This document shows, piece after piece, positions 8,752-23,362 of a stretch of DNA of 29,205 nucleotides. The notes beneath the pieces were generated by a model, which saw only the letters and a program-made list of their open reading frames with translations, had not been told where the DNA came from and made no database searches. The position numbers and the translations under genes are program-made. Numbering within the stretch: position 1 is the stretch's first letter; the number at the start of each line of letters is the position of its first letter. This stretch comes from a virus. Where the stretch lies: positions 1-29,205 of the IMG/VR virus record IMGVR_UViG_3300023174_008937, one strand, 5' to 3'.

Positions 8752-9031
8752 TGGTACGAGTGGCGAGATTCGAACTCGCGACCATCGGATTAACTTACCA
8801 CTATAGTTTTCACTACCAATCCTGAGATTGTTTGTGGTCTGGACTTTATCTTCACCATGGCATAAAGCGTTAGGTGGTTCCTGTTAAGTCTCTACACCTT
8901 CCCATTGCTGGGCTTGGCTCGGTATTGCCATTTTACAGGGTTCACCGAATTTAAGAACATTCACACTGGAAGTTTCCTATCCAGGTGCTCCACACTAAAG
9001 TCCGGTGCTCTACCAACTGAGCTACACTCGC
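8752..9031 (-). tRNA. tRNA-Lys (anticodon UUU) interrupted by a group I intron
   Basis: The exons are 8998-9031 (acceptor GCGAGTG, D-arm GCTC/GAGC, first part of the anticodon arm) and 8752-8793 (rest of the anticodon arm, T-loop TTCGAAT, acceptor CACTCGT, discriminator A, CCA). Joined, they give a 76-nt tRNA whose anticodon loop is CTTTTAA, anticodon TTT. The intron splits the anticodon between positions 34 and 35. Confidence 0.9.
8794..8997 (-). ncRNA. group I intron in tRNA-Lys(UUU), 204 nt
   Basis: The minus strand carries the conserved group I core: GGCAATACCGAGCCAAGC (8912-8929), GGTGTAGAGACT (8887-8898, strand R of P7) and AAGATAAAGTCC (8841-8852, strand S). The last base is G (omega-G, 8794) and the 5' exon ends in U, as required for splicing. 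An internal GAG just downstream of the 5' splice site can pair with exon CUU, with the usual U-G wobble. There is no ORF inside. It resembles the intron at 19194-19394 in core and size but differs in its peripheral stems. Confidence 0.9.
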
Positions 9032-15981: not shown

Positions 15982-17589
15982 TTATGTTGGAGACCAAAAC
16001 ATACTACATTGTTGTGATTTCCAGTCAAGATATTTACGCATTGCTGTAGTAGTAGATTTATTGCCGGTTACCTCTAAAGTATTATCAATAAATTTTTGTT
16101 TGGATAAAAAATACTCAAATTGAATTTTATGTAAAAGTTTTTCTTTGGTTTCCTTATCAAATTTAATCTTAATTAAATCGGTTAATTCTAAATTAAACTT
16201 TTTAGCTTTGGCTAGAAATCCCGGAACATCAAAAGGTGAAAGATGTGCTCCTAGATGTCCTAGATGATTAAAATAATTTTTAAATTTAAGCGAATATTCT
16301 GCTGCCTGCGCTTGCGTTACACCCATTTGATTGGTCCACATATAATAATGTAATTTTTGATCTTCTAATTTGTATTGATATTTTGTAAAATTTGATAAAT
16401 TTCCGCTATGAAGATACAACGGTTTAAAGGAATTAGAAGTTATGACATCTTTGATATCCGGTCTGTGCAGGAATTCGAAAAGCTCATTGAAATAGTCGAT
16501 GGTATCATATGGGAGCCCCAAAATCCACTGGGCACAAATAAACATCTCATTGTTGGTTAATTCAGATATAGAATGCAGTGCTTCGATGGTCCTAGTTTTA
16601 CCCAATCCTTTTCCTACTGCACTGCCACTTTTGTCATTGATTGTTTCAATTCCCAAATCCCACGCTACAAATCCTGCATCTTTAAGGGATTTAATCATCC
16701 ATGGCCATTTCCAAAACAAATCCAATCTAGCATAAGATGCTATTTTTACTTTAAATGGTAAACTTTCTAGCACATCTACGATAAAATTGACTTTATCTTC
16801 GCTATCATTTATGATTTCATCAGTGCACCAATAATGACTAATATTGTGTTCTTCATAATTTCTTATTAGCTCGGAACGTATAATTTCTTTAGTTCTGGTG
16901 TAGTCTCCGGCTTTTTTTCCTAGTAATTTATAGGTGCAATAGCCACATTTAAAAATGCAACCTCGTGCAATTTCTATACCTATACTTTCATGTTCAGACA
17001 GTTCGTCAAATTTCGACCATTTAATTGAATTTGACGAAAAATTTTCAAAAGGATATAATGAGTCTGAAATTACAGTTGTTTTATATTTACTACTCAATAA
17101 AATATCTTTTTTAAGATTTGTAGAGTTTTGTGTTTCGTAATCTAATATATTCTTAAGAATTTCTTCGCCTTGGCCAATAGTGACGTAGTCAAATTTTTCT
17201 AAAATTCCATTACGATTTATGGAATCTAGATACTCTGGCACAATCGACCCGCCTCCAAGTATTAACTTAACATGGGGCGCAAAATTTTTTATATATTCCA
17301 AACGTTGCCTAAATTGTTCTTCGCTTAACCCAAAAAATTCTATCCCGTTTGTGGTCCCAGTTGATTCGGATCGAGGTAAAACAGTGGATGAAAAACCAAC
17401 AAGAAGTGTGTGGTTTTTTATAACTGTTTCTACAATTTTAGTAAATTCATCATCTGTTTGAAACAAAAAATAATTGATTACTCTGGTTTCATAAGAAAGA
17501 TCAGTCAGATAACTGGCCAACACATTTGCACCAATGGGACGTTCGCTACATTGATTGGCAATATCAGTAAAAATTATAACAGCAGACAT
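15982..17589 (-). CDS. B12-binding-domain radical SAM protein
   Basis: A 535-residue protein. Residues 1-160 look like a cobalamin-binding-type Rossmann domain (GANVLASYLTDLSYETRVINY, LVGFSSTVL, VKLILGGGSIVPEY, DYVTIGQGEE). The radical SAM motif is ARGCIFKCGYCTY (C-x3-C-x2-C, about residues 213-225), followed by the TIM-barrel region (YARLDLFWKWPWM, WDLGIETIND, WILGLPYDTIDYF). This architecture is that of B12-binding radical SAM methylases and related enzymes. The usual DxHxxG cobalamin motif is not evident, so B12 binding is uncertain. Similar proteins occur in T4-like marine phages without assigned substrates. A consensus late promoter lies exactly 5 nt before the ATG. Confidence 0.85.
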   Translation of the reverse strand: MSAVIIFTDIANQCSERPIGANVLASYLTDLSYETRVINYFLFQTDDEFTKIVETVIKNHTLLVGFSSTVLPRSESTGTTNGIEFFGLSEEQFRQRLEYIKNFAPHVKLILGGGSIVPEYLDSINRNGILEKFDYVTIGQGEEILKNILDYETQNSTNLKKDILLSSKYKTTVISDSLYPFENFSSNSIKWSKFDELSEHESIGIEIARGCIFKCGYCTYKLLGKKAGDYTRTKEIIRSELIRNYEEHNISHYWCTDEIINDSEDKVNFIVDVLESLPFKVKIASYARLDLFWKWPWMIKSLKDAGFVAWDLGIETINDKSGSAVGKGLGKTRTIEALHSISELTNNEMFICAQWILGLPYDTIDYFNELFEFLHRPDIKDVITSNSFKPLYLHSGNLSNFTKYQYKLEDQKLHYYMWTNQMGVTQAQAAEYSLKFKNYFNHLGHLGAHLSPFDVPGFLAKAKKFNLELTDLIKIKFDKETKEKLLHKIQFEYFLSKQKFIDNTLEVTGNKSTTTAMRKYLDWKSQQCSMFWSPT

Positions 17590-18328: not shown

Positions 18329-19138
18329 TTAAGCCAGTCCAGTCAATCTTTTTTCGTATTCATCAACCTGATACACCAATTCCTCATAGGTCATACTTGA
18401 TACTTTGTGTTTTTTAGCATTGTCACTGTTCAGTAGCAACTCACAATTAAGAGGATGTTTTATGTAATAGGGATCGTAATTATTTCTAATAGCATCTGCC
18501 ACACTAACCTTGTGATCTCTTACAACTCCATTAATATTGTTCTTACCTCTACTACGCATACCATACGTTTTTAACAAAGTAAAATCAAACAAATCTGGAT
18601 AATCTGACAATTTAAAAGTAAACCAATAATTGGCTCTACCATTATGGCTGTAATTGTTGCTGTGTTCTGCACAAAACTTTTTGTAAAATCTTAAAATAGT
18701 TTCTTTTCCACAAATTTTGCATTTGCATCGGTAAACCGCAGAGTATGGCCCAACAATATTTTTGTTTAATTTTTGTTTTTCATATTTTGTAAGATTACTT
18801 GATTTAACAGGACCATACTTTCTCTTGCCTACCAATTTTAGATTGTTGTGAGTTGCCGAACACGAATGGCTGCAAAATTTATTTTGTCTATTTTCGTAGG
18901 ACATCGCCGCAGAACACTGAAGACAGTGTTTGGGTGCGGTCAGATATTTTTCTACATTTTTTCTTTTAGTATTTGTTCCAAATTCTTTACCAAAAACTCC
19001 ACCTTTGTCTCCACTTTCTTTCCACTTTTGTTTGCCATCGACAGTATGGCTCGCAATATAATGTGTATGGATCCCTTTTACAGATAGAGTTTTCTTACAG
19101 TAAACACAACTAACTTGTATAGATGTATATTGATTCAT
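18329..19138 (-). CDS. HNH homing endonuclease next to tRNA-Ile(CAU)
   Basis: A 269-residue protein starting MNQYTSIQVSCVYCKKTLSV. This ATG is chosen because TATAAATA lies exactly 5 nt before it; the frame continues into the tRNA. Several Cys clusters (CVYC...H, CLQC...C...H, CKCKIC...C) suggest zinc-binding DNA-contact modules. The C-terminal region VVRDHKVSVADAIRNNYDPY followed by HPLNCELLLNSDNAKKHK is an HNH nuclease motif (DH...N...N..K). It begins 15 nt after the CCA of the intron-bearing tRNA-Ile(CAU). The intron itself has no ORF, so this free-standing enzyme may mobilise the intron or the tRNA region in trans; that is an inference. Confidence 0.8.
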   Translation of the reverse strand: MNQYTSIQVSCVYCKKTLSVKGIHTHYIASHTVDGKQKWKESGDKGGVFGKEFGTNTKRKNVEKYLTAPKHCLQCSAAMSYENRQNKFCSHSCSATHNNLKLVGKRKYGPVKSSNLTKYEKQKLNKNIVGPYSAVYRCKCKICGKETILRFYKKFCAEHSNNYSHNGRANYWFTFKLSDYPDLFDFTLLKTYGMRSRGKNNINGVVRDHKVSVADAIRNNYDPYYIKHPLNCELLLNSDNAKKHKVSSMTYEELVYQVDEYEKRLTGLA

Positions 19139-19143
19139 ACAAC

Positions 19144-19151
19144 TATTTATA
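19144..19151 (-). promoter_or_regulatory. consensus late-promoter box TATAAATA, 5 nt before ATG
   Basis: TATAAATA, GTTGT, then the ATG at 19138. It lies only 2 nt beyond the 3' CCA of tRNA-Ile(CAU). Confidence 0.65.
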
Positions 19152-19153
19152 AT

Positions 19154-19431
19154 TGGTGCGCCCACCTGGACTCGAACCAGGAACCAACGGATTCAAGTTT
19201 GTGTGACTTTCGCCACTCCTTGGACTATGCCTTCACCATTGCTTGCGCTTTAGGTGGGTGCCGTCTAGTCTCTACACCTTCAACAGTGTTTCCACTGAAG
19301 CTTGGCTCGGCATTGCCATATGCTTTCGCACTTAGGTTTCACCGAATTTGACACCATCCCTTATGCAGTTTCCACGCATAAGGCACTCTTTTGAATGAGT
19401 CCGCTGCTCTAACCAATTGAGCTATGGGCGC
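19154..19431 (-). tRNA. tRNA-Ile2 (anticodon CAU) interrupted by a group I intron
   Basis: The exons are 19395-19431 (acceptor GCGCCCA, D-arm, anticodon arm up to CAT) and 19154-19193 (AATCCG, T-loop TTCGAGT, acceptor TGGGCGC, discriminator A, CCA). Joined, they give a 77-nt tRNA with the anticodon loop CTCATAA, as in bacterial tRNA-Ile2. The neighbouring tilS gene (gap 19 nt) supports isoleucine rather than methionine identity. The intron lies directly after the anticodon (position 36). Confidence 0.92.
19194..19394 (-). ncRNA. group I intron in tRNA-Ile(CAU), Azoarcus type, 201 nt
   Basis: The core motifs are GGCAATGCCGAGCCAAGC (19300-19317), GGTGTAGAGACTAGAC (19263-19278) and AAGGCATAGTCC (19222-19233), with terminal omega-G at 19194. 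The 5' exon ends CAU and the intron has a GUG guide shortly downstream (in GAGTGCC), the CAU/GUG pairing known from the 205-nt Azoarcus tRNA-Ile(CAU) intron. From memory, much of the remaining sequence (GGATGGTGTCAAATTCGG, GAGTGGCGAAAGTCACACAA) is also nearly the same as Azoarcus. It has no ORF. Confidence 0.93.
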
Positions 19432-19450
19432 AAAACCTTCCACTGCTTAA

Positions 19451-20098
19451 CTACTCAACAAAACAATTGTAATTGATCTCAGTCTGATTGTCAACAGATT
19501 CTAGAAACTTTTTCTCTACAATTCTGCGCACAACTTTGTGAATGCCCGGGTTGACTTCCAAAATTCTGGGCATGACATCGTGTCTGACCCTGTTACGAGT
19601 GTATTTGGTGTCCCAGTTACTGGTATCGTCGTGCCAACTGACCTGATGCCGCTGACACCATGACACTAATTCTGCTTTGGTGTTAAGCAAAAATGGTCTG
19701 ATTGTCCGATGTCGACGATGGGGGATTACTTTGGCAGTGCCGTGGCACATGCTCCAGATGTAGGTTTCTACACAGTCATCCAGATGATGCGCAGTCACTA
19801 CCGTCTGTCCCAAACGATCAAATTCCGCATAGCGTTGTTCACGCCAAAACTCTTCTGGACTTTGTTCCGCTGCCTTTTTTCGATGGTCGATGTTGGTCAC
19901 AAACATGGCGATGTCATGTTGATTGCAGTACTCAGCCACAACTTGTTGACCCGCAGTGCTGTTTTCGGTGCCGTGATGAACAAACACTGCTGTGACCTCG
20001 TGTCGTCGACGCAAGAAGTCCAGCGCAGCCATGCTGTCTGCGCCGCCGCTGCAGGCCACAAATACGTTGTCTGGAACTCTGCCTAGCAATTTAATCAT
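19451..20098 (-). CDS. tilS: minimal tRNA(Ile)-lysidine synthetase
   Basis: A 215-residue protein with the N-type ATP-pyrophosphatase P-loop VACSGGADSMAALDFL (about residues 14-29), FVHHGTENSTAG, FWREQRYAEF, TAHHLDDCVETYIW (about 101-114), RPFLLNTKAELVSWCQ, and DDTSNWDTKYTRNRVRHDVM (about 157-176). These are the catalytic-domain signatures of TilS, which attaches lysine to C34 of tRNA-Ile(CAU) so that it reads AUA and is charged with isoleucine. It consists of the catalytic domain only; E. coli TilS has about 430 residues with extra C-terminal domains. It ends 19 nt upstream of the tRNA-Ile(CAU) gene in the same orientation, so enzyme and substrate tRNA are probably co-transcribed. Confidence 0.93.
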   Translation of the reverse strand: MIKLLGRVPDNVFVACSGGADSMAALDFLRRRHEVTAVFVHHGTENSTAGQQVVAEYCNQHDIAMFVTNIDHRKKAAEQSPEEFWREQRYAEFDRLGQTVVTAHHLDDCVETYIWSMCHGTAKVIPHRRHRTIRPFLLNTKAELVSWCQRHQVSWHDDTSNWDTKYTRNRVRHDVMPRILEVNPGIHKVVRRIVEKKFLESVDNQTEINYNCFVE

Positions 20099-21696: not shown

Positions 21697-21704
21697 TATT
21701 TATT
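21697..21704 (-). promoter_or_regulatory. late-promoter-like box AATAAATA
   Basis: AATAAATA lies 7 nt before the ATG at 21689 and overlaps the stop codon of the upstream nucleotidyltransferase-cupin gene. Confidence 0.45.
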
Positions 21705-22464
21705 CTAAGCGTTCAATGTCTTCTTCAACGCAATTTGTGCCGTATTGGATTTCAACGATTTTTAATGGTTCATCGCATTCATTGGCTAGGCGATGCCATT
21801 GATTTTTTTTGATTTCTAAACTATGATGCGGTCGAAAACATCCCATCAATGATTCTGCATTGCTGCTGTTATCAATGGTATAAACTGTAGCATGCCCTTC
21901 TGACACCGACCAAAATTCGCAACGATGTTGGTGACGTTGCATGCTGAGACTGCATCCGGGATTTACAGTGAGTTCTTTGACTTTGGTGTGGTTCCCAATG
22001 GTATGCAATACTCTATAATATCCCCAAGATCGTAACAACTTAGGTGATTTCCATTCTTCAAGTATCCAACTACTCGAATTCGCTTTGTTGTCGCCACCAA
22101 TTCCAAAAACAAATTCTACATCATCAAAGATCATTTCGGGAATGTTGTCTTTGTTTCTGTCGCCTCCATTGGCAAAGATTATTTCGTCGTTGGGAAACAT
22201 CTCTTTGACTTTACGAATAGCATCGCATGCTGTGCCATCGCTATCATCGAATTCAATCACCCGATCTACCATATGAAGATTATCTAATATGATCATACGT
22301 TCTTGCCAAGGCATAAACGGTTGACCTTTTTTGCGTGCGAGCCAGGCATCCGAATTAAGGGCCACTATTAACCAGTCGCCCAAATGATCAGCATGATTTA
22401 ACAAAGATATGTGCCCGGAATGTAAAGGATCAAACCCCCCCGACACAACAACAATCTTAGTCAT
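21700..22464 (-). CDS. nucleotidyltransferase-cupin fusion (sugar-phosphate activation)
   Basis: A 254-residue two-domain protein starting MTKIVVVSGGFDPLHSGHIS. Residues 1-140 are a cytidylyltransferase-like domain: GGFDPLHSGH is the (H/T)xGH nucleotide-binding site, and the segment around NSDAWLARKKGQPFMPWQER resembles HldE/TagD-type enzymes that activate heptose or glycerol phosphates. Residues 150-254 are a cupin like the C-terminal part of type II mannose-6-phosphate isomerases: RSWGYYRVLH, VKELTVNPGCSLSMQRHQHR, EFWSVSEGHATV, HRLANECDEPLKIVEIQYG and EEDIERLE. The ATG overlaps the end of the methyltransferase gene, suggesting translational coupling. It probably makes or modifies an activated sugar; the substrate is unknown. 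Confidence 0.82.
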   Translation of the reverse strand: MTKIVVVSGGFDPLHSGHISLLNHADHLGDWLIVALNSDAWLARKKGQPFMPWQERMIILDNLHMVDRVIEFDDSDGTACDAIRKVKEMFPNDEIIFANGGDRNKDNIPEMIFDDVEFVFGIGGDNKANSSSWILEEWKSPKLLRSWGYYRVLHTIGNHTKVKELTVNPGCSLSMQRHQHRCEFWSVSEGHATVYTIDNSSNAESLMGCFRPHHSLEIKKNQWHRLANECDEPLKIVEIQYGTNCVEEDIERLE

Positions 22465-23362
22465 AATTTTTCTTAGGAGGCTGCGCCGAAACAACTGGCT
22501 TCAAATCAGTTCCTATAATTTTTTTGCTGGCTTGTTTAACACTGCGCTTTCTCGATTTTTTGAGTTCATTAAACACCCCGGCATCGATGGGAACCCCTGC
22601 TTCTGTAGGAACTTCAGTGGCCGGCATAACATAATCAACAAAATAATTTTCTCTGTCCAGCCAAGGATAGAGTATTTCTTCCTGACGAATAAAATTATTT
22701 CTATTGATAGATTCCGCCACTGTGGGATTTAGCAGCCCCTGATCTATCAGGTCTGCTAGTGAAGTTTTACTAGGATCCATGGGCGGAATTTCTGATTTAT
22801 ACACTGCCATGTGAATCCAGGTATCATTAAACTTTTTTAACAGATATGCATCTTTGCAATCAAAACCATTGACAGCCAGCATATAAATTAGATTGGTGGG
22901 AGTGTAATGAAAATAACACCCGCTGTGTGTGGTGCTGTAGTATCGGTTGTATTCCACCCCGCTGTGCTGCGGCACAGTAATCACCAGCATGCCATTGACA
23001 TTCATCTGCTCGTTCCAGACACGCAGAGTTTCCAATGGATTGGTACTGTACTGCAAACTATCGTGTGCCCACATCAGATCAATTTCCACTGGAAAAAGTT
23101 GTGGTTCTGAAAAGTCTCGATTTATCTTGGTGATATTGGGCATTTCAGGCACTAGAGCAAGTTTTCTGGTGTCAACGTCAACCGCAAAACAGTTGTAGTT
23201 GTGTGGCACTGGTGGGTCATCTCGAGTGGTAAGTGTTGCCCACCAGGCAATGTCTTGTCCGGTACCGCAGCCCATGTCTGCAACATTTCGCAGACTATCT
23301 AGGAAACTGTCGTACTCGTAGAGTTGATTTAAAATATGTTGACTGTGTCTCTGATTATCCAA
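22457..23362 (-). CDS. class I SAM-dependent methyltransferase
   Basis: A 301-residue protein. The SAM-binding motif VADMGCGTGQDIAWWA (about residues 27-42) is followed by FAVDVDTRKLALV (motif II), IDLMWAHDSLQYSTNPLETL (motif IV, about 93-112) and GMLVITVPQHSG. The C-terminal third is charged, ends in a Lys/Arg-rich tail (KKSRKRSVKQASKKI) and has no recognisable domain. It overlaps uvsY upstream and the nucleotidyltransferase-cupin gene downstream by 8 nt each, so all belong to one operon. The layout (HDSLQY, VPQHSG) is that of small-molecule or sugar methyltransferases. Substrate unknown. Confidence 0.82.
   Translation of the reverse strand: MDNQRHSQHILNQLYEYDSFLDSLRNVADMGCGTGQDIAWWATLTTRDDPPVPHNYNCFAVDVDTRKLALVPEMPNITKINRDFSEPQLFPVEIDLMWAHDSLQYSTNPLETLRVWNEQMNVNGMLVITVPQHSGVEYNRYYSTTHSGCYFHYTPTNLIYMLAVNGFDCKDAYLLKKFNDTWIHMAVYKSEIPPMDPSKTSLADLIDQGLLNPTVAESINRNNFIRQEEILYPWLDRENYFVDYVMPATEVPTEAGVPIDAGVFNELKKSRKRSVKQASKKIIGTDLKPVVSAQPPKKNYD

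Follow-up and report, generated by a model that had tools for sequence, protein, structure and literature searches.

Known viral TilS proteins, phage tRNA introns and tRNA-linked endonucleases

Bacterial TilS reaches its tRNA via appended C-terminal domains, of which type II enzymes have one and type I enzymes two (PMC12514573), and the enzyme from E. coli uses the acceptor-stem base pairs C4:G69 and C5:G68 as identity elements (PMC12514573). In phages, TilS genes are already known from Pseudomonas phages MIJ3 and PA5oct (PMC6892783), from pelagimyophages (PMC7029224) and from Ralstonia phage RsoM2USA, where the protein comprises 349 aa (PMC8504454); the passages on TilS in these three papers discuss neither a tilS-tRNA pair nor missing domains. 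For chloroviruses, a role of TilS in AUA decoding, alongside viral tRNAs, has been proposed (PMC7589089). Lysidine has been reported on a phage tRNA(CAU) (reviewed in PMC13191261), and a lysidine-type tRNA-Ile is kept by T4-like phages (PMC1524935).

A review from 2014 that names the Azoarcus pre-tRNA-Ile ribozyme stated that no introns were known in phage tRNA (PMC3984707). Introns were then reported in 2019 for tRNAs of Lak megaphages and described as enigmatic (PMC6784885). SegB of T4 and T6 is a homing endonuclease of the tRNA region (PMC13096335), and F-CphI mobilises the psbA intron of cyanophage S-PM2 (PMC6083498). Phage TilS, lysidine on phage tRNA, phage tRNA introns and tRNA-linked homing endonucleases are already known separately. 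In the open-licence literature we found no description of a tilS-tRNA pair, of a domain-minimal TilS class or of the whole assembly reported here, which is weak evidence of novelty.

Layout of the locus

The window, i.e. the whole stretch of DNA that was analyzed, is an IMG/VR record of 29,205 bases from a T4-like phage and encodes UvsX, UvsY and a single-strand-binding protein. On its minus strand, tilS is followed by an intron-split gene for tRNA-Ile(CAU) and then by an open reading frame for a putative HNH-type endonuclease:

19451..20098, minus strand: tilS for a protein of 215 aa that has just the catalytic N-terminal domain (TIGR02432, motifs, AF2, Foldseek)
19450-19432: gap of 19 nt between tilS and the tRNA gene
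19431-19154, minus strand: whole tRNA-Ile(CAU) gene, CCA encoded
19395..19431, minus strand: 5' exon of tRNA-Ile(CAU), the last letters being the anticodon CAU (position 36); C4-G69, C5-G68
19194..19394, minus strand: group I intron of Azoarcus type (tRNA-Ile family), length 201 nt, without an ORF, terminal G (RF00028)
19384..19386, minus strand: internal guide sequence GUG, P1 partner of the anticodon CAU (from sequence)
19154..19193, minus strand: 3' exon of tRNA-Ile(CAU), CCA encoded
19153-19139: gap of 15 nt between the tRNA gene and the endonuclease ORF
19144..19151, minus strand: TATAAATA, T4-late-promoter-like, 5 nt before the endonuclease ATG (consensus match only)
18329..19138, minus strand: putative free-standing HNH-type endonuclease, phrog_23051 family, 269 aa (conserved motif)

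An earlier note on this DNA had given the two spacings as 19 nt and 15 nt, and the coordinates confirm both. Elsewhere in the window, a cytidylyltransferase-cupin (mannose-6-phosphate isomerase-like) fusion protein of the T4-like phage is encoded at 21700-22494 and a B12-binding-type radical SAM protein at 15982-17589 on the minus strand.

Gene order, recurrence, domain content, intron class, the empty site and the tRNA association of the endonuclease family were all observed directly. We read the locus as a phage AUA-decoding gene pair, consisting of tilS and its substrate tRNA-Ile(CAU), that has been colonised by mobile elements, and assign this reading a probability of roughly 0.8.

A TilS protein that ends with the catalytic domain

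The window protein scores 126.6 bits against the NCBIfam model TIGR02432 (lysidine_TilS_N), above the curated cut-off of 93.6, and matches Pfam PF01171 at 8.9e-35. When aligned to 1NI5, 3A2K and 1WY5, it contains the PP-loop SGGxDS and the TilS motifs DxSN and RNxxR. The SGGADS P-loop, HHLDDCVET and DDTSN...YTRNRVRH are largely invariant across 28 phage TilS proteins; the key residues, whose loss the earlier note considered fatal to its proposal, are kept. An AF2 model (pLDDT 91.7, last 10 residues disordered) finds its best Foldseek matches in 2E21, 1WY5 and 1NI5, all of them TilS. It spans just the N-terminal domain of these structures, where the sequence stops, bearing out the claim of a catalytic-domain-only tilS. 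CTD1 and CTD2 are absent from the window protein and from all 88 distinct viral TilS proteins examined, and the size of the latter is 195-217 aa in 88 of 88 cases, below that of either known TilS type. These proteins were fetched by three scans of viral contigs and represent best-scoring relatives rather than a random sample; the records searched are metagenomic and mostly fragments.

TilS activity cannot be assumed for the window protein because the tRNA-contacting C-terminal domains are missing. It could be another PP-loop enzyme or a decayed TilS with a different role, and PHROGs indeed gives just weak matches, to other PP-loop families. This is improbable in view of the score above the curated TIGR02432 cut-off, the ranking of TilS structures ahead of TtuA, MnmA and LarE, the conserved motifs and the observation that any tRNA within 120 nt downstream is always CAU. 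The uniform length across the 88 viral proteins argues against decay in particular. As judged from its sequence, the window protein is a TilS variant that is a member neither of type I nor of type II. The existence of a large viral TilS family without appended domains means that the minimum for lysidine formation is testable in an enzyme of about 200 residues, the natural substrate tRNA of which is encoded next to it.

The tilS-tRNA(CAU) pair recurs in diverse phages

A tRNA gene on the same strand and within 120 nt downstream of tilS is present in 10 of the 88 distinct viral loci (the window, L002, L021, L027, L042, L051, L064, L144, L145 and L148). All ten are CAU, compared with 10 of the 131 other tRNAs of the same loci. 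About 1.2 paired loci were expected from tRNA density. The pair is spread over three distinct regions of the TilS tree, L051 being a phage of 518 kb, and in most paired loci the paired tRNA is the sole one in 8-12 kb. About three quarters of the TilS loci feature no tRNA in the stretch examined; among 22 of these contigs that were scanned whole, 12 have tRNA-like matches, only some of these CAU, and the other contigs may be fragments. The tilS-tRNA(CAU) combination is a real recurrent gene pair in diverse phages, and the earlier statement that enzyme and substrate are carried together holds.

Regarding the same gene order in other phages, it is this pair that recurs, while the endonuclease is not constant. 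L002, the closest relative, shows the same arrangement of tilS, tRNA and intron and lacks the window's endonuclease. In L003 and L004, the intron-bearing tRNA is gone and a different endonuclease and a different tRNA(CAU) are found in its place. A remnant of tRNA positions 8-27 (D-arm) is still discernible after tilS (0 of 2000 shuffles match as well), and the remnant and the new tRNA(CAU) together indicate that tilS retained a CAU tRNA at its side despite the exchange. Intronless (L021), intron-bearing (window and L002) and endonuclease-replaced (L003 and L004) alleles of one gene pair are therefore at hand, a system for studying the invasion of phage tRNA genes by introns and homing genes with function kept. 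Two huge-phage records of 634 and 642 kb (L013 and L014) that contain tilS also encode a tRNA-Ile with the anticodon UAU, which would need no lysidine to read AUA.

Exon boundary and isotype of the tRNA

A default ARAGORN run on the window reported 14 uninterrupted tRNAs and missed tRNA-Ile(CAU). With introns allowed, the program placed a gene at 19154-19431 with a 201-nt intron, set the splice site two nucleotides off and named the tRNA Gln. We rejected this tRNA-Gln(ttg) call as a splice-site shift that is corrected by L021. This 202-kb phage contig, the TilS of which is 59% identical to that of the window, contains the same tRNA with one nucleotide changed and no intron, starting 26 nt after its tilS. 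It is a natural empty site, which independently fixes the exon boundary in the window. The intron is inserted exactly after the anticodon, between U36 and A37, in agreement with what had been claimed from the window. The spliced tRNA, GCGCCCATAGCTCAATTGGTTAGAGCAGCGGACTCAT joined at the exon junction to AATCCGTTGGTTCCTGGTTCGAGTCCAGGTGGGCGCACCA, folds into a complete cloverleaf with the CAU anticodon in a CUCAUAA loop. Standard tRNA finders miss such intron-split genes, and phage tRNA sets are under-counted as a consequence.

A CAU anticodon next to tilS could also be that of an elongator tRNA-Met residing there by accident. ARAGORN names the intronless relatives Met, and several paired tRNAs lack the identity pairs of E. 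coli TilS: C4-G69 and C5-G68 are present in the window and L021 tRNAs and absent in L042, L051, L064 and L145. Yet the exons match bacterial tRNA-Ile(CAU) with the same intron, both identity pairs are found in the window tRNA, another, different CAU tRNA is encoded elsewhere in the window and likewise in L021, and the adjacency to tilS is far above chance. We consider tRNA-Met highly unlikely. Assignment of the paired tRNAs to Ile instead of Met rests on sequence similarity and, in the window, also on C4-G69 and C5-G68. The tRNAs without identity pairs would fit a viral TilS that recognises nothing but the anticodon arm.

An Azoarcus-type group I intron that pairs with the anticodon

The intron is matched by RF00028 at 19406-19201 with 55 bits (gathering score 50, E 1.5e-11). 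It starts with UCAAAAGAGUG, the GUG of which pairs with the anticodon CAU (C-G, A-U, U.G) and forms P1, and its last base is G. The combination of a CAU/GUG P1 and a terminal G is present in 41 of the 41 tRNA-Ile introns gathered. A 26-nt core pattern of the intron was found in 6 viral contigs and in 40 bacterial contig stretches, the majority from Betaproteobacteria. Nearly all bacterial copies reside at the same point of tRNA-Ile(CAU), those in L118, L121 and L129 being located in another tRNA. Over about 200 nt, the window intron shares 88-89% identity with copies from a Neisseriaceae bacterium and from Pseudoduganella/Duganella. It can be assigned to the Azoarcus-type group I introns akin to those in betaproteobacterial tRNA-Ile, the family of the Azoarcus pre-tRNA-Ile ribozyme. 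In the few flanking kb, none of the 40 bacterial introns was seen to be accompanied by a TilS gene. A sister intron in L011 and L018 is 97.6% identical over 164 nt to that of the window and differs from it in P1-P2; its 5' part looks as though it had been swapped.

The proposal that modification of C34 has to wait for splicing is supported, as the intron splits the anticodon loop and P1 covers the anticodon: C34 would be hidden until splicing because P1 pairs CAU with the GUG of the intron. Tentatively, one may go further and consider phage TilS as a third class that tells tRNA-Ile2 from tRNA-Met without C-terminal domains, with splicing and lysidine formation coupled in the locus studied here. 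In several phages, this TilS class is paired with tRNAs without acceptor-stem identity pairs. If coupling were true, the use of CAU as a P1 strand would make C34 unavailable before splicing and constitute a built-in order. In turn, lysidine, being unable to pair with G, would keep the intron from reverse splicing into the mature tRNA, such that splicing and modification would be linked, one rendering the other irreversible.

The window contains a second intron, overlooked in the earlier reading, in a tRNA-Lys(UUU) gene at 9031-8752:

8998..9031, minus strand: 5' exon of tRNA-Lys(UUU), ending at U34 (ARAGORN with introns)
8794..8997, minus strand: group I intron in tRNA-Lys(UUU), 204 nt, after U34; RF00028 50.0 bits, equal to the gathering score of 50
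8752..8793, minus strand: 3' exon of tRNA-Lys(UUU)

This intron is 84-86% identical over 159 nt to introns in tRNA-Leu(UAA) of the sister phages L011, L019 and L020, which also sit after CUU. This suggests spread of the intron between tRNA genes that share the P1 target (Lys and Leu). A looser scan of viral DNA for related introns yielded about 80 copies, 55 of them inside a tRNA, most often tRNA-Leu(UAA). Group I introns of this kind are common in viral tRNA genes (L330-L408), including those for Leu, Tyr, Arg, Lys and others. As intron-split viral tRNAs are common, standard phage tRNA annotation misses many.

The putative endonuclease belongs to a family of tRNA arrays

In PHROGs, the 269-aa ORF falls into phrog_23051 (3e-45), the function of which is given as unknown. 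An RDH...HPxNC...NxxK motif and zinc-knuckle cysteines are conserved in the family, and D208-H209, N231, N240 and K243 (window protein numbering) are invariant in 22 members. No Pfam family matched the ORF, a PDB sequence search with it returned nothing significant, and in Foldseek the best E was 0.56, HNH entries appearing just at E of about 2-3. A single-sequence search of viral contigs retrieved no relatives; an alignment query was needed to find them. The designation as an HNH endonuclease is backed by the conserved HNH-type residues, but neither by a Pfam match nor by a significant fold match, and we retain it as putative.

Relatives in the jumbo phages GAP32, Vibrio phage 2.275.O, an Erwinia phage, a 735-kb phage and Lak are all located in tRNA arrays. 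In 80 viral loci with a phrog_23051-family gene, the distance to a tRNA is at most 100 nt in 55 loci, at most 300 nt in 63 and at most 1 kb in 78; in random segments of TilS loci, used as a control, the value is 5% at 300 nt. The nearest tRNAs are those for Cys, Ala, Trp, His, Met, Asn and others, and given this variety the family is not specific for tRNA-Ile. For the 269-aa protein, the most fitting description is that of a putative HNH-type homing endonuclease from tRNA arrays, and phrog_23051 could receive the annotation of a putative endonuclease associated with such arrays.

The earlier note had counted the endonuclease as third member of a self-contained AUA-decoding module, which would imply that the three genes were selected as one unit. 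They are indeed contiguous and on one strand in the window. However, the presence of the endonuclease beside the conserved tilS-tRNA locus is patchy: it is absent from the otherwise alike L002, which already contradicts such a unit, and an unrelated endonuclease is carried by L003 and L004. Together with the general habit of the family to adjoin tRNAs for Cys, Ala, Trp, His, Asn and other amino acids, this led us to reject a place of the endonuclease inside the decoding module, a reading to which we give very little probability.

The same note had equipped the endonuclease gene with its own late promoter. The motif TATAAATA is present in five copies in the window, all on the coding-rich minus strand and three of them at the same 5-nt spacing before an ATG:

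7014-7007, minus strand: TATAAATA
7720-7713, minus strand: TATAAATA
17602-17595, minus strand: TATAAATA
17943-17936, minus strand: TATAAATA
19151-19144, minus strand: TATAAATA, before the endonuclease ORF

While the motif is there, it is situated just 5 nt before the ATG, so that a transcription start spaced as in T4 would coincide with the start codon or lie beyond it. At all three sites with this spacing, the distance is too short for a leader. Possibly, leaderless late transcripts arise from these sites. The sequence ATAAATA is also found just before the endonuclease start in L003, L008 and L021.

The endonuclease of L003 and L004 is phrog_15137-like, exhibits a PD-(D/E)XK-type motif and has family members in 28 viral loci, in 26 of which a tRNA(CAU) starts within 0-39 nt:

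L003:4660-5409: phrog_15137-like gene
L008:1724-2359: phrog_15137-like gene
L302-L327: loci with further phrog_15137-like genes

In L008-L010, the tRNA(CAU) beside the phrog_15137-like gene carries an Azoarcus-type intron. This family, not that of the window, is the stronger candidate for a tRNA-Ile-specific intron partner.

It is conceivable that the window endonuclease cuts intronless tRNA-Ile(CAU) and mobilises the ORF-less intron, in analogy to F-CphI. The anatomy is the same as that of F-CphI and psbA (PMC6083498), an empty-site allele exists in L021, and the phrog_15137-like genes offer a case in which an endonuclease beside tRNA(CAU) co-occurs with the same intron. On the other hand, the family of the window's endonuclease is not tRNA-Ile-specific and L002 and L006 have the intron without either endonuclease. 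We regard such collaborative homing as possible but less likely than not; it would be compatible with a gene pair colonised by mobile elements.

AUA use is ordinary

Carriage of enzyme and substrate had been explained by the need to read AUA in an AT-rich genome. The GC content of the window is 41.7%, and AUA accounts for 118 of 8015 codons, i.e. 14.7 per 1000, and for 22% of the Ile codons. In tilS, uvsX and the gene for ssb, the codon is almost absent. TilS-bearing loci show no excess of AUA over comparison phages; at equal GC it is slightly rarer in them than in endonuclease-family loci, a crude control that may include AUA-reading phages. A special need for AUA is not borne out, and high AUA use as a signature of TilS phages was rejected. 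Rather than from unusual codon demand, the benefit may come from providing modified tRNA where phage tRNA-Ile2 outstrips the capacity of host TilS, or from replacing a host tRNA that has been damaged.

Proposed course of events and comparison with known systems

If tilS and the tRNA gene are co-transcribed, one transcript would yield both TilS mRNA and pre-tRNA. The Azoarcus-type intron would splice itself out between U36 and A37, and a normal anticodon loop would exist in the joined tRNA only. TilS would then convert C34 to lysidine, and the lysidine-bearing tRNA would be charged with Ile and read AUA. The endonuclease gene would be selfish and free-standing, from a family typical of tRNA arrays, and may move itself and the flanking tRNA and intron by cutting tRNA loci of co-infecting phages.

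With bacterial TilS, the window protein shares the catalytic N-terminal domain, the PP-loop and the TilS-specific motifs. Type I enzymes consist of NTD, CTD1 and CTD2 and type II enzymes of NTD and CTD1 (PMC12514573), whereas the viral proteins lack both CTDs. TilS of MIJ3 is a short homologue, 38% identical to that of the window, but the tRNAs of MIJ3 are located 5-10 kb from tilS and none is recorded as interrupted, while the window tRNA adjoins tilS and is intron-split. Chloroviruses are viruses of eukaryotic algae with 12-13 times the AUA use of their host (PMC7589089), in contrast to the ordinary AUA use of the window phage. Bacterial Azoarcus-type introns in tRNA-Ile(CAU) share the insertion point, the CAU/GUG P1, the length of about 200 nt and up to 89% identity with the window intron, which differs in residing in a phage gene and beside tilS. 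For the Lak tRNA introns, the class is not given (PMC6784885), whereas the tRNA-Ile intron of the window is of group I and its bacterial relatives are visible. SegB resembles the window ORF as a free-standing endonuclease gene beside phage tRNAs, and F-CphI is likewise encoded by a free-standing gene that adjoins an intron-bearing one (PMC6083498). The nuclease families differ, SegB being of the GIY-YIG type and F-CphI carrying an Endo VII motif.
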